Source: Mucilaginibacter sp. PAMC 26640
Lineage (GTDB): Bacteria; Bacteroidota; Bacteroidia; Sphingobacteriales; Sphingobacteriaceae
Direction: 5' to 3'
DNA length: 64,000 nt
Assembly (NCBI GenBank): GCA_001596135.1
Contig: CP014773.1
Location: 1,364,001-1,428,000 of the forward strand
How positions within the stretch are numbered: the stretch's first letter is position 1; the number at the start of each line of letters is the position of its first letter. The notes beneath the pieces are model-generated. The model was not told the origin of the DNA, made no database searches, and was given only the letters and a program-made list of their open reading frames with translations. Position numbers and translations under genes: made by a program. Of the stretch, positions 25,287 through 39,870 are shown piece by piece.

Positions 25287-25383
25287 GGCTCCCGGCCCCG
25301 TAAAGGGGGAGTAATAGTTAAATTATAGGCAAATATATAAATTTGCCGGTCAAAGGCTCCCCCTTCAGGGGGTTGGGGGGCTC
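25287..25383. repeat. Bipartite GC-rich palindromic element, copy A
   Basis: One degenerate arm (25287-25311; GGCCCCGTAAAGGGGGAG) and one inverted arm (25355-25383; CTCCCCCTTCAGGGGGTTG then GGGGGCTC) flank a 43-bp AT-rich linker. The linker carries a TATATTTG box on the minus strand (25330-25337) pointing at xth. The second arm contains the stop codon of the cyclophilin gene. Confidence 0.85.
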
Positions 25384-32477: not shown

Positions 32478-33485
32478 TTAGCCTATTACTCGGGGCCCTT
32501 TATCATTGATGGTTGAAACATAACCATTCGAGCCTATTTTTATACTGGTTAAATGTTTTTGTAGTTTTTGAGTGATCCGCTTAGCGGTATCCTCATCGCG
32601 GGTAAAGGCAAACACAGATGGCCCTGATCCGGAGATGCCAAAGCTTACCGCGCCGAGGTCCATGGCCATTTCCCGCATAGCATAAAAATCCGGGATCAGC
32701 ATGCTGCGCACAGGCTCCACCAGTACATCTTTCATACTACGCCCAATCAAATCGATGTCCTGCATAAATAAACCGCTCACCAGGCCTGCAATATTGCCCC
32801 ATTGGGTTACGGCGTCCTTCATAAAGATCTTATTACGGATGATCTGCCGGGCTTCCCTGGTAGGTACATCCACATCCGGGAAAACGATGGCACACCACAA
32901 GCCGGCGGGGTGCGGTAAACGCACTACATCCAATGGCTCATAACTGCGGATGAGCACAAACCCGCCCATCAGCGCGGGTGCCACATTATCGGCATGGCCG
33001 TGTCCGCAAGCCATTTCCTCACCTTTCATAGCGAAAGGTAACAAGGTAGAAACATCGGTATCATCACCCAAAAGGGTCTTAATGGCAAACAAACCGGCTA
33101 CCGTACTGGCAGAGCTTGAACCCAGTCCGCTGCCAATGGGCATTTTTTTATGCAGTTCGATGTCTAACCCGATATCCGGCCTGTCTATACTCTGCAGGTA
33201 ATGCTGAACGCTTACACTTACCGTGTTTTTAGCCGGGTTAAGCGGCAGGCGCCCGTCATCACCGGTAATCTTACTGATGGTAATTCCCGGTTTATTGGTT
33301 AGGCGCATAATAACCTCATCGCCCGGCTCATTCACCGCAAAGCCCAGTACGTCAAATCCACAGACGACGTTGGCAACGGTGGCCGGCGCGAAGACATGGA
33401 TACCCTCCCCGCCCCCTGAAGGGGGAGTTTTCCCCCTGACCCCCTGAAGGGGGGAATGAATATTTTTTTCTAAGCTATTTTCCAT
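32478..33485 (-). CDS. thrB: Homoserine kinase with a repeat-derived N-terminal insert
   Basis: This GHMP kinase phosphorylates homoserine. The family's start IHVFAPATVANVVCGFDVLGF appears only after residue 28; the ATP loop MPIGSGLGSSSASTVAG is intact. Before it stand MENSLEKNIH and then 18 residues (SPLQGVRGKTPPSGGGEG) that are translated from two palindromic-repeat cores. Ile-His appears on both sides (ATTCAT and ATCCAT), as if the repeat had inserted in frame with a 6-bp duplication. The catalytic core is undisturbed, so the enzyme should work. A GTG four codons upstream is an alternative start. Confidence 0.93.
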   Translation of the reverse strand: MENSLEKNIHSPLQGVRGKTPPSGGGEGIHVFAPATVANVVCGFDVLGFAVNEPGDEVIMRLTNKPGITISKITGDDGRLPLNPAKNTVSVSVQHYLQSIDRPDIGLDIELHKKMPIGSGLGSSSASTVAGLFAIKTLLGDDTDVSTLLPFAMKGEEMACGHGHADNVAPALMGGFVLIRSYEPLDVVRLPHPAGLWCAIVFPDVDVPTREARQIIRNKIFMKDAVTQWGNIAGLVSGLFMQDIDLIGRSMKDVLVEPVRSMLIPDFYAMREMAMDLGAVSFGISGSGPSVFAFTRDEDTAKRITQKLQKHLTSIKIGSNGYVSTINDKGPRVIG

Positions 33486-33532
33486 ATAATTTTTCACTTT
33501 TACTCCCCCTTCAGGGGGCTGGGGGGCTTCCC
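33402..33532. repeat. Bipartite GC-rich palindromic element, copy B
   Basis: Two tandem cores (33402-33455) lie inside thrB, and an inverted arm (33503-33532) lies directly after the thrA stop. The AT-rich linker of about 47 bp between them holds the start codon of thrB. Each core has the hairpin CCCCCTTCAGGGGG. Confidence 0.9.
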
Positions 33533-35983
33533 CTAATTCGCTCCTACGTTTATCAGATCCGCAAATACGCCAGCTGCGGTTACTTCGGCACCTGCCCCGG
33601 GGCCCTTAACTACCAGCGGGCGGTCCTTGTACCTATCGGTAGTAAACGAGATGATGTTATCGCTACCGCTAAGCATATAGAAAGGGTGGTTCTCATCAAC
33701 CATTTGCAGGGTGATAGCGGCTTTACCGTCTTCCAGTTTGCCAATGTAGCGCAATACTTTTTTATTCTTTTCTGCTGTATCTTTCAGGTTGGCGAAGAAT
33801 GCGTCTTCGTTTTTTAATGCAGCATAGAAATCCTCCACCGTTTGCGCATCCAGGCAGCTTTGCGGCAGGATGCTATCAATCTGCACATCTGCTGCTTCCA
33901 TTTCGTAACCGGCATCGCGGGCCAGGATCAGCATTTTGCGCATAAAATCCTTTCCGCTCAGATCGTCACGCGGATCTGGTTCGGTATATCCCTTATCCTG
34001 TGCTTCTTTCACCACATCGTGAAAGTTGGCATCGCCCTTAAAATAATTGAAAATAAAGGAAATGGTACCAGATAGAATAGCTTCGATGCGCTGCACCCTG
34101 TCGCCACTGCTCATCAGGTCTTTTAGGGTACGGATGATTGGTAAGCCCGCACCTACGTTGGTTTCATAAAAGAAATCAACCCCGTGTCTGCGTGCCGTAT
34201 CTCTGAATGTTTTATACTGGCTGTAGCTGGCCGAGTTGCCTATTTTATTACAGGTAACTACCGAGATGTTCGATTTGAAGATCTCCTCATAAAACCCGAT
34301 AGGAGCTGGGCTGGCAGTATTATCTATAAACACGCAGTTGGGCAGGTTCATTTGCTTCATATGGTGAATAAAAGTCTGCAGATCTGCCGTATGGTGCGAA
34401 TCCTGCAGTTCCTCTTCCCAGTTATCCAGCGATAGGCCATCGGTGTTAAACACCATTTTACGCGTATTGCTGATACCTGCAATTTTTACTTGGATGCCGT
34501 TGTTTTTTTGCAGGAACTCGCGGTGTGCGTTCAACTGGTTAAACAGGGTTTTGCCAATGTTGCCGGTGCCGAGGCAGAAAGCATGCAGCGTTTTGGTTAG
34601 CTGGATAAAGAAGGCATCATGTACTGCATTCAGCGCTTTTGCCAGGTCGGTTGCCGAGATGATTACGGAAATGTTATACTCGGAAGACCCCTGTGCAATG
34701 GCGCGCACGTTTATACCGTTACGGCCCAGTGCATGGAATAGTTTGCCGCTTACACCCGGCGTTTGTTTCATATTTTCGCCCACTATAGCCAATATAGCCT
34801 GGCCTTTTTCAACCACTATAGCTTCCAGCTTATTGGCCAGCAGTTCCAGTTCAAACTCTTGTTCTATCAGTAATTGTGCTTTATCAACATCATGTGGCTG
34901 TACCGCGAAGGTAATGCTGTGTTCTGATGAAGATTGGGTGATCAGTATGATGTTGATCTGCTCTCTCGCCAGCAAAGAAAACAACCTGCCGCTAAAACCG
35001 GATTTGCCCACCATACCGCTGCCTTCCAAACTCAGGATGCTGATGTTATTGATAGAGGAAATCCCTTTGATGGGCAGGGTAGAAGCCTTGCAGTCGTGAC
35101 GGATAAATGTGCCCACAAACTCCGGCTCAAAGGTGTTTTTGATCACAATGGGGATCTTCTTCAAAAATGCCGGGATCATGGTTGGCGGGTAGATCACCTT
35201 GGCGCCGAAATACGATAGTTCCATCGCCTCGGTATAAGTTAGCTCCTCTAATGAGAATGCTTTTTTAACCATGCGCGGGTCGGCGGTCATCATGCCGTTT
35301 ACGTCCGTCCAGATCTGGATCTCCTGCGCATTTAGGGCCGAGCCGAAAATGGCGGCGGTATAATCACTGCCGCCTCTGCCAAGCGTGGTAATCTGGCCGG
35401 CATCATTACCTGCAATAAATCCGGTAACGAAAAGCATTTTATCGTTGTTCTCATTGTAAAAGCTGCGGATCAGTGTTTCGGTCAGGTCCATATTTACACG
35501 CGCCTGTCCAAAAGAATTGTCTGTTTTGATGAGCGTGGATGCGTCAACAAACAATGCTTCCGGGAAGTATTGGGCGGCAATCTTACTGATCATCAGGGTA
35601 GAGCAACGTTCGCCGTAACTCAGGATGGTATCCCTTGTTTTTGCAGTGAGCTCGCGCAGGGTAAGTACGCCTTGCAACAATTCTTCCAGTTGGTTAAAGT
35701 GGATCTTAAGGCGGGTATAGGCCGGGTTTTGGTTTTGAATTTCCAGTAAAGCTTTCACCACTTCAAAATGCCGTTTCTCCAGCTCTGCCAGTTCGGCGGT
35801 AAATTCGTTACCCGCGGCGGCACCTTCCGCCATGGCAATCAGCAAATTGGTGATGCCGCTCATGGCAGATAAAACTACCACCGGGCGTTCGCCATTTTTG
35901 TGTTGTTCTTTGAGTATATCCAGCAGGGTTTTGATGCTGCTTACCGATCCTACGGAGGTTCCTCCAAACTTAAATACTTTCAT
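33533..35983 (-). CDS. thrA: Bifunctional aspartokinase / homoserine dehydrogenase
   Basis: The 816-residue protein catalyses the first and third steps of threonine, methionine and lysine-branch synthesis. The aspartokinase domain starts MKVFKFGGTSVGS and runs to about residue 290. Paired ACT regulatory domains follow (about 300-460), then the NAD(P)-binding HSD domain with CLGTGNIGKTLFNQL and the catalytic ADVQIDSILP-containing end. The ACT region indicates feedback control by threonine. A transcription attenuator directly precedes the gene, adding control by charged tRNA. Confidence 0.96.
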   Translation of the reverse strand: MKVFKFGGTSVGSVSSIKTLLDILKEQHKNGERPVVVLSAMSGITNLLIAMAEGAAAGNEFTAELAELEKRHFEVVKALLEIQNQNPAYTRLKIHFNQLEELLQGVLTLRELTAKTRDTILSYGERCSTLMISKIAAQYFPEALFVDASTLIKTDNSFGQARVNMDLTETLIRSFYNENNDKMLFVTGFIAGNDAGQITTLGRGGSDYTAAIFGSALNAQEIQIWTDVNGMMTADPRMVKKAFSLEELTYTEAMELSYFGAKVIYPPTMIPAFLKKIPIVIKNTFEPEFVGTFIRHDCKASTLPIKGISSINNISILSLEGSGMVGKSGFSGRLFSLLAREQINIILITQSSSEHSITFAVQPHDVDKAQLLIEQEFELELLANKLEAIVVEKGQAILAIVGENMKQTPGVSGKLFHALGRNGINVRAIAQGSSEYNISVIISATDLAKALNAVHDAFFIQLTKTLHAFCLGTGNIGKTLFNQLNAHREFLQKNNGIQVKIAGISNTRKMVFNTDGLSLDNWEEELQDSHHTADLQTFIHHMKQMNLPNCVFIDNTASPAPIGFYEEIFKSNISVVTCNKIGNSASYSQYKTFRDTARRHGVDFFYETNVGAGLPIIRTLKDLMSSGDRVQRIEAILSGTISFIFNYFKGDANFHDVVKEAQDKGYTEPDPRDDLSGKDFMRKMLILARDAGYEMEAADVQIDSILPQSCLDAQTVEDFYAALKNEDAFFANLKDTAEKNKKVLRYIGKLEDGKAAITLQMVDENHPFYMLSGSDNIISFTTDRYKDRPLVVKGPGAGAEVTAAGVFADLINVGAN

Positions 35984-39064: not shown

Positions 39065-39829
39065 TTAAACCAATTTCACCAGTCTATCGCCATCCAAAAC
39101 CGGGATGGCGGTAGTTACATCCACCTGCAGGCAAAAGGCAATGTCTTTTTCGATGCCCAACTTTTTTAGGCGCTCGCCGTGAGATGTTTTGCTGAGGTAT
39201 TGGGCTATGTCATTCTTTCCTAACTGGAAGAGGTCGTTAGCGGCCAGGGAGGGGTCATCCAAAATATAGCCATCGCCCTTTAGTTGTTCTATTACGGCCC
39301 CCGCAAACAGCGTGTCTTCCAAGTTGAAGTTGTTTTTCCAGCCGGCGCACACCAGTAAGATACTTTCGTTCTGCGTTTTAAGCCAGTTACAAAGTGCGGT
39401 TAAATTCAAGAAAGAACCGATGACGATTCTTTTTGCTTTGCGTGATAAATGGAGCGCGTGGGTCCCGTTTGTGGTAGTGAGGACAACAGTTTTGCCTGCT
39501 ACTTTTTCGGATGTATAGGAAAAAGGGGAGTTACCGAAATCGAAGCCCTCAACTACTTTACCGTCTCTTTCTGCGGCTAATAAATAATCAAGCCCCTTTT
39601 CACGATAGGCAGCACATTCTGCTACTTCTGATACCGGAATAATTGCTTCTGCGCCATTCTCAACGCCATAGCAAATTGATGATGTGGCGCGAAAAATATC
39701 AATCACCACAACAATATAATCTTCCACGTTGTAAAGTGGGATAAGGGCAGGGCTAAGGCAAACGTCGAGCCCAAGCCCTGCCCCCCGGCCCCCTGAAGGG
39801 GGAGCGGAATTTGTATATTTTTTAGTCAT
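39065..39829 (-). CDS. comB: 2-phosphosulfolactate phosphatase-like protein (ComB family) with repeat-derived N-terminus
   Basis: The 254-residue protein matches the ComB family (LDVCLSPALIPLY, VVIDIFRATSSICYG, then TTTNGTHALHL). In coenzyme M makers it dephosphorylates phosphosulfolactate; in Bacteroidota its role is unclear. The family start LDVCLSPAL appears only after 20 residues, and the stretch SAPPSGGRGAG before it is encoded by a palindromic repeat arm. The start codon lies in the AT-rich linker of that element. Confidence 0.85.
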   Translation of the reverse strand: MTKKYTNSAPPSGGRGAGLGLDVCLSPALIPLYNVEDYIVVVIDIFRATSSICYGVENGAEAIIPVSEVAECAAYREKGLDYLLAAERDGKVVEGFDFGNSPFSYTSEKVAGKTVVLTTTNGTHALHLSRKAKRIVIGSFLNLTALCNWLKTQNESILLVCAGWKNNFNLEDTLFAGAVIEQLKGDGYILDDPSLAANDLFQLGKNDIAQYLSKTSHGERLKKLGIEKDIAFCLQVDVTTAIPVLDGDRLVKLV

Positions 39830-39870
39830 TATTTTAATTCTGTTCCCCCTTCAGGGGGTTAGGGGGCCGC
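39775..39870. repeat. Bipartite GC-rich palindromic element, copy C
   Basis: Arm 39775-39807 (core GGCCCCCTGAAGGGGGAG) is in the comB coding sequence, and the inverted arm 39843-39870 (CCCCCTTCAGGGGGTTAGG) lies after the gcvT stop. The 35-bp AT-rich linker has the comB ATG. Confidence 0.9.

Follow-up and report, generated by a model that had tools for sequence, protein, structure and literature searches.

Intragenic REPs and the palindromic elements of Rickettsia are established, and the parts of the literature cited here describe several systems close to the repeat reported below. REPINs, or REP doublets (Bertels and Rainey 2011), are pairs of REP arms in inverted orientation, separated by a short, variable spacer. 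They occur in many copies, have a predicted hairpin, are tied to RAYT genes and were described as extragenic (PMC3116915). Intragenic REPs often lie in DNA repair genes and also in tRNA pseudouridine synthases, with a share of them at N-termini. The GTAG REPs supply stop codons, and CGTC repeats occur in some Bacteroidetes; neither Pedobacter nor Mucilaginibacter is mentioned in the cited main text (PMC3733652). The RPEs of Rickettsia are palindromic elements of ~150 bp, each with a conserved peptide (PMC10969869). In nematomorph mitochondria, coding inverted repeats have been gained and lost between species, their arms being perfect and apparently maintained (PMC6649704).

Here we analyzed a 54-base insert in the homoserine kinase gene thrB of Mucilaginibacter sp. 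PAMC 26640, located in a stretch of 64,000 nucleotides that is referred to as the window. We consider it probable that this insert consists of two copies of a REPIN-like repeat with 99 places in the genome, which sit in the reading frame of thrB and whose predicted translation product is an N-terminal tail, likely an unstructured one. The Mucilaginibacter doublets share with REPINs the inverted arms, the short variable spacer, the copy number and the predicted hairpin; they differ in that no RAYT link was found, and in that their arms lie in frame and straddle start codons (PMC3116915). Like the GTAG and CGTC intragenic REPs (PMC3733652), the repeat occurs inside open reading frames (ORFs), but neither tag is present at the foot of the palindrome in the consensus GCTCCCCCTTCAGGGGGCTGGGGGGC, which was derived from 30 aligned copies of the 99. 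The likeness to the RPEs, drawn by description, is that both occur in frame in unrelated core proteins. The RPEs measure ~150 bp, have a conserved peptide and belong to Rickettsia, whereas the present arms comprise ~26 bases, are usually paired, are read in several frames (three sense frames in ThrB) and belong to a genus of the Bacteroidota (PMC10969869). The nematomorph palindromes likewise lie in coding sequence, but their arms are perfect, while the Mucilaginibacter arms depart from the consensus independently (PMC6649704). A search of open-licence papers returned none that deals with the present repeat, nor any that describes palindromes in frame in genes of Mucilaginibacter or of Pedobacter. 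What is added here is a tag-less Mucilaginibacter family that straddles start codons, uses several frames and varies abundantly between species.

The thrB gene (positions 32478 to 33485, minus strand, 335 aa, ATG at 33485) matches the curated profiles TIGR00191 and NF002288 above their cut-offs, and this match begins at residue 30-31. A sequence-only reading of the window had described a palindromic repeat inserted in frame inside thrB between two Ile-His codon pairs, and this description holds. The order on the minus strand is ATTCAT (33456-33461), the 54 bases (33402-33455) and ATCCAT (33396-33401), and one open frame, NIH SPLQGVRGKTPPSGGGEG IHVFAP, runs through them. The 54 bases hold two copies of CCCCCTTCAGGGGG, a repeat of ~26 bases, and encode the 18 residues SPLQGVRGKTPPSGGGEG with no stop. 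Coding arm 1 (33432-33453, minus strand, read SPLQGVRG) has 0 mismatches to the family pattern, and coding arm 2 (33404-33425, minus strand, read TPPSGGGEG) has 1 mismatch. Their core CCCCCTGAAGGGGG lies at 33412-33425 and 33440-33453, and it recurs inverted at 33505-33518. This third, inverted copy, which was absent from the list of the sequence-only reading, was found by the pattern scan at 33505-33526 on the plus strand, between the stop of thrA and the start of thrB. The upstream 816-aa ORF (33533-35983, minus strand) was named by eye as thrA, encoding aspartokinase/homoserine dehydrogenase. From its stop (33533) to the start of thrB the gap measures 47 bp, and the gap arm starts 6 bp past that stop, while the other arm lies inside thrB. 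The repeat pair thus straddles the probable start codon of thrB (33483-33485, minus strand, motif ATGGAAAAT). The AlphaFold model of ThrB was too poor for use (mean pLDDT 55.5), so the position of the insert relative to the fold was taken from alignment to solved structures: the solved ThrB 4p52 aligns with this ThrB only from residue 27 on, past the insert.

In the window, the wider pattern gave 6 copies at up to 3 mismatches versus 0 in 100 shuffles. A second in-frame case, likewise missing from the earlier list, was found in a ComB-like ORF (39065-39829, minus strand, MTKKYTNSAPPSGGRGAG..., named by eye). Its arms, both found by the pattern scan, comprise a coding arm at 39781-39802 on the minus strand and a gap arm at 39845-39866 on the plus strand, between the stop of the upstream ORF and the start codon, so that the arrangement at 39781-39866 resembles the thrA-thrB junction. 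A single copy (25359-25380, plus strand, pattern scan) overlaps the 3′ end of a 238-aa ORF that ends in ...MPSPPTP before its stop. In the whole genome, the pattern CCCCCTTCAGGGGGNNNGGGGG with up to 3 mismatches gave 100 rows, corresponding to 99 distinct places, compared to 1 for the reversed-pattern control; a short palindrome in many copies per genome is also typical of REPs and REPINs. The repeat arm is a ~26-base palindrome, and as read off the consensus its commoner type has no stop codons in 5 of the 6 reading frames. Exact copies were present in 106 of 120 sampled Mucilaginibacter genomes (0-97 per genome, control 0). In a sample of the family they occurred in 33 of 151 genomes, namely 18 of 19 Mucilaginibacter genomes and 15 of 132 genomes of other genera, the latter with at most 7 copies each. 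The palindromic repeat is therefore a genus-typical family of Mucilaginibacter. Rfam returned only three miRNA/snoRNA matches, far under the gathering scores.

The copies have a marked orientation. Among the neighbours within 200 bp of each other in this genome, 25 of 34 are inverted with their tails outward, 9 are direct and 0 have their tails inward, so that the inverted doublet is the common unit, as it is for REPINs. The spacers between paired arms range from 14 to 93 bp. In five other genomes, 28 of the 29 close neighbours among the rows listed were inverted with outward tails. Paired arms may also be described by their joints. Pairs of one arm with a YTA joint and one with an NNG joint made up 16 of 25 in this genome, where 10.1 were expected (p-value = 0.004), and 14 of 28 in the five other genomes, where no such tendency was seen (p-value = 0.41).

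The placement of the copies was called with a hexamer coding model, for which 27 long ORFs of the window served as the training set. Of the 99 places, 65 were intergenic, 17 were at the start of an ORF, 11 at the end and 6 internal, and the tail was directed at the ORF in all 17 start copies and all 11 end copies. Copies at ORF ends can encode the final residues and the stop (e.g. ...SPPAP-stop and ...SPPTP-stop). Start copies were found in ThrB, TrpG, MurD, MurG, ArgC, HisD, the ComB-like ORF at 39065-39829 and others, including an RtcB-like ORF whose match falls below the curated cut-off, and in two more cases the start copy overlaps the first codon of the called ORF. In ThrB, TrpG, ArgC, MurD and MurG the curated profile match begins a few residues past the repeat with no methionine between. 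In the UvrC-, TrpC- and HemB-like ORFs, whose names were given by eye, the repeat is followed by a methionine, and the copies there may therefore be untranslated. The six internal copies comprise a pair each in RadA and TruA, a single copy in ArgC and, with 3 mismatches, a decayed one in RecN, and the in-frame copies of RadA, TruA and ArgC have family-profile matches on either side. In-frame placement in unrelated core genes is thus observed for ThrB, TrpG, MurD, MurG, ArgC, RadA and TruA.

These insertion sites vary within the genus. Loci were resolved by pattern in 20 of 22 cases for RadA, 7 of 20 for TruA, and 20 of 23 for both the N-terminus and the internal site of ArgC. The RadA insert lies between MRAGRL and CYILTETS, and the alignment with the solved structure 5lkm breaks there, between query residues 141 and 175, where the chain has residues 137 to 144. 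An arm or pair was recognisable by eye in 4 of the 20 resolved same-genus RadA sequences, and many other same-genus loops were filled by low-complexity repeats of other kinds. Among the distant relatives three were resolved; the loop was short in L241 and L243, and in L236 it was long but without the palindrome. In TruA the pair was present in 3 of the 7 resolved same-genus sequences and in two different frames: L244 and L247 carry the repeat in one loop in different reading frames in two species. The N-terminal arm of ArgC was seen in 4 of 20 resolved same-genus sequences. At the internal site of ArgC, this genome has the repeat and one species has a different GC-rich stretch, while 18 of the 20 resolved sequences have neither. 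Together with these relatives, the structure alignments of RadA and ThrB indicate that the inserts observed fall in termini and loops.

For thrB we compiled 110 loci, taken from 30 of the 39 genomes with a match and from the 80 best of the 148 relatives, and removal of 17 duplicates left 93 distinct loci. An arm was called present at a score of at least 12, a threshold of our own; shuffles, made for the coding stretch only, reached at most 11. The sequence-only reading had proposed that ThrB N-termini be compared across close strains, and in this comparison the relatives differed, contrary to the uniform insert that the same reading had named as a refutation: the coding arm was present in 51 of the 93 loci, the gap arm in 46, both in 39 and neither in 35, and short N-termini without an arm read MEKEIHVFAP, MENSIQVFAP or MKESIKVFAP. 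On the thrB core tree, which gives the number of changes and does not distinguish gain from loss, the coding arm requires 28 changes, of which at least 16 are forced by well supported branches. Shuffled labels gave a mean of 30.8 changes, and 82 of 500 shuffles were as low as the observed value, so that the trait is hardly clustered on this tree. The gap arm changes state together with the coding arm (about 11 versus 0.5 independent pairs; median sign test p-value = 0.002). The 51 coding arms are read in three frames, namely PPSG (44), SPFR/SPLR (5) and PLQ/PFQ (2); the first unit of the ThrB of this strain is a further copy in the PLQG frame, as it is in L075, L079 and P0001. Since 44 of the 51 share one frame, much of the pattern may reflect old inheritance with repeated loss. 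In each of two pairs of sisters (L146/L153 and L081/L089), one member has both arms and the other has neither, and the codons between are alike. Armed and arm-less sisters thus have this spacer in common, which is not explained if a doublet was simply inserted together with a spacer of its own. No clean empty site with defined borders or a target duplication was found.

We infer that the repeat is mobile and selfish and that its copies in frame in thrB form a translated N-terminal tail of homoserine kinase. It would work like a REPIN, i.e. as a non-autonomous element, probably a selfish one, in which two REP arms stand head to head. It would spread within Mucilaginibacter genomes and settle at gene edges, where its G-rich tails point to the genes. 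Where two genes of an operon meet, as at thrA-thrB, the doublet would straddle the start codon of the second gene, with one arm behind the stop of the first gene and the other arm a few codons inside the second. Since the commoner arm type is stop-free in 5 of 6 frames, many landings would leave the frame open, and selection would probably retain only frame-preserving landings in termini or loops. The proteins that carry the repeat-coded extra peptide are likely to tolerate it. The likelihoods that we attach to the following alternatives are not mutually exclusive.

An alternative that we regard as unlikely is that there is no transposition at all, and that template switching, gene conversion and between-species recombination of neighbouring genes have both spread old copies and erased them. 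It would fit that no transposase could be linked to the repeat in the genome or genus checks. This genome has six loci with Y1_Tnp profile hits, all of which were examined, and L042-L044, as well as L041, which contains a stop, are RAYT-like by an HNNP-type motif that was compared by eye with a table in the cited part of PMC6006769. No repeat copy was present within about 1.5 kb of L041-L044, where other palindromes or none were found. At L040, which is not RAYT-like, a single imperfect copy lies ~0.9 kb from the transposase; it scores 17, and shuffles reached at most 11. The RAYT gene association that is typical of REPs and REPINs was thus absent from the loci checked, and RAYT as the mover was rejected because none of the RAYT-like genes of this genome carries the repeat. 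In the genus, Y1_Tnp hits were found in 109 of 120 genomes, and 8 of the 11 genomes without such hits still hold 1-27 copies, although copies of old date could persist after the loss of a transposase. Of the 30 Y1_Tnp loci with the best scores in the genus, which need not be RAYTs, 1 has a perfect core in the flanking sequence retrieved. Across the 120 genomes, the Y1_Tnp and repeat counts were weakly correlated, with genome size uncontrolled (Spearman 0.30, p-value = 0.0009). Two more features would suit non-transposing repeats: the arms flank host sequence that is common to arm-less sisters, and the same RadA and TruA loops hold other short repeats. However, up to 97 exact copies per genome, near-consensus copies at unrelated sites and the different frames of the repeat in the TruA loop of L244 and L247 all suggest separate arrivals. 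As a separate observation, the Y1 loci L039, L040, L041 and L044 each have a repeated palindrome of their own (CCCCGTCAGGGG, CCGTCACTTGAAAGTGACGG, AATTTAAGCTTCCAGCTTAAATT and TATCCAAGTGTCCACACTTGGATA, respectively), and these are perhaps cognate REP families.

A bolder form of the REPIN-like reading seems to us quite improbable: a genus-wide mobile doublet, placed astride the start codons of biosynthetic operons, would tag the N-terminus of the enzyme and at the same time close the start codon in a hairpin loop, and it would be RAYT-free and move by a transposition route so far undescribed. If this were true, one selfish element would rewrite both the protein and the translation of host genes.

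The hairpin leads to another reading, which has a rather small chance of being correct and is compatible with mobility: the doublet would be a regulatory RNA, its arms pairing in the thrA-thrB mRNA and holding the AUG in the loop of a long stem, so that thrB translation would be controlled or coupled. The fold predicted for the junction has -70.7 kcal/mol (z = -4.5) with the thrB AUG in the loop, and the AUG is enclosed by a predicted helix in all 39 two-armed thrB loci. Arms of the same species pair at -45.3 kcal/mol versus -43.8 for swapped arms (4 of 5000 permutations), a difference in which ancestry and within-genome homogenisation are uncontrolled. Inverted pairs of any one family will pair anyway, however, and the arms show no co-variation: where the coding arm departs from the consensus, the gap arm has a matching change in 2 cases and none in 20, so that no arm-arm co-evolution was found, and the loop letter is unlinked between the two arms (Fisher p-value = 0.30). 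Moreover, one or both arms are absent from 54 of the 93 thrB loci, similar doublets occur within RadA and TruA, and no terminator-like site was found. We take the predicted thrA-thrB hairpin as a by-product, with a possible effect on thrB translation.

It is very improbable that the stretch is untranslated, with ThrB starting downstream and the repeat being an ordinary extragenic REP in the leader. According to the cited part of PMC3733652, N-terminal REPs in other bacteria are often extragenic, the true start being downstream. Rare ATC or ATT start codons also remain conceivable for ThrB, and the UvrC- and HemB-like ORFs have an in-frame Met directly past the repeat. Against this, the start motif, which was chosen after the sequences were viewed and searched regardless of frame, shared the frame of the conserved VFAP in every hit, 45 of 45 for loci with an arm and 32 of 32 for the other loci. 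The TA-joint subtype, which places a TAG in the PPSG frame, was absent from the coding arms in this main frame (0 of 44) and was present in 20 of 46 gap arms. The p-value for this contrast (Fisher, 1.4e-7) is too small, because the rows share ancestry and are not independent and because paired arms tend to differ in their joint here. The sequence-only reading had named a start of translation after the insert as another point on which it would fall; in this strain there is no ATG, GTG or TTG between the insert and the domain, and the next one lies 20 codons into the core, while among the 51 arm-bearing loci 6 have such a codon between the arm and the conserved domain. Finally, the copies in RadA, TruA and ArgC are internal and must therefore be translated if those genes work. 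The repeat in thrB is thus very probably translated into protein. In this respect the likeness to the Rickettsia elements that the sequence-only reading had pointed out is borne out, as a likeness of manner: a dispersed repeat, in frame in a core enzyme and very likely translated.

The same reading had taken the Ile-His flanks for a target duplication, but a direct target duplication, as in a MITE, is not supported: P0001 lacks these flanks, and L075 and L079 lack them at their first unit. P0001, the closest relative (93% identical), has the double unit with the flanks DIQF and SISVFAP and no Ile-His, and the conserved domain natively begins with IHVFAP (L116 has MEKEIHVFAP, and many others have SIHVFAP). 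At the internal copy of ArgC, no target duplication was seen by eye. As the double unit is also found in L075 and L079, with what look by eye like remnants in L078 and L083, it does not represent a single recent event in this strain.

These data extend in-frame palindromic inserts, of which those of Rickettsia are the best known, to a genus in which many species have been cultured and sequenced, and the species of Mucilaginibacter differ in the presence, absence and reading frame of the inserts. This variation in a cultured genus makes several questions testable: whether the inserts are translated, tolerated or used, how REP-like doublets spread without a nearby RAYT, and how new N-termini and loops of core enzymes originate.

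Repeats other than the present palindrome were seen at several of the same sites. The RadA loop of L214-L235, from MRAERL to CYILTETS, is hypervariable and filled in frame by short repeats that differ between species, of the types GGCAGTTGGCAGT, GTCGGAAGTCAGAAGTC and CGAAATCCGAAATC, or by the present palindrome. The heptamer repeat GCAGTTGGCAGT... of these loops is rare, with 1-4 hits in 10 of 37 same-genus genomes. In the TruA loop of L246, L248 and L249, other repeat-like stretches (GGACCATAGACCAT type) occupy the place of the palindromic pair. The present genome has two truA-like genes (G000:C2:1803390 and 1549190; 39% identical in the match), and the pair was found in the first of these. 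The ThrB N-termini of L034 and L026 lack the palindrome and have another repeat-like stretch in frame (CCCGCAACC type). At the thrB loci L027, L085 and L016, the place of the coding or the gap arm is taken by another palindrome (CCTCCGCC...GGCGGAGG type), whose G-rich tail is similar, as if the cores were exchangeable.
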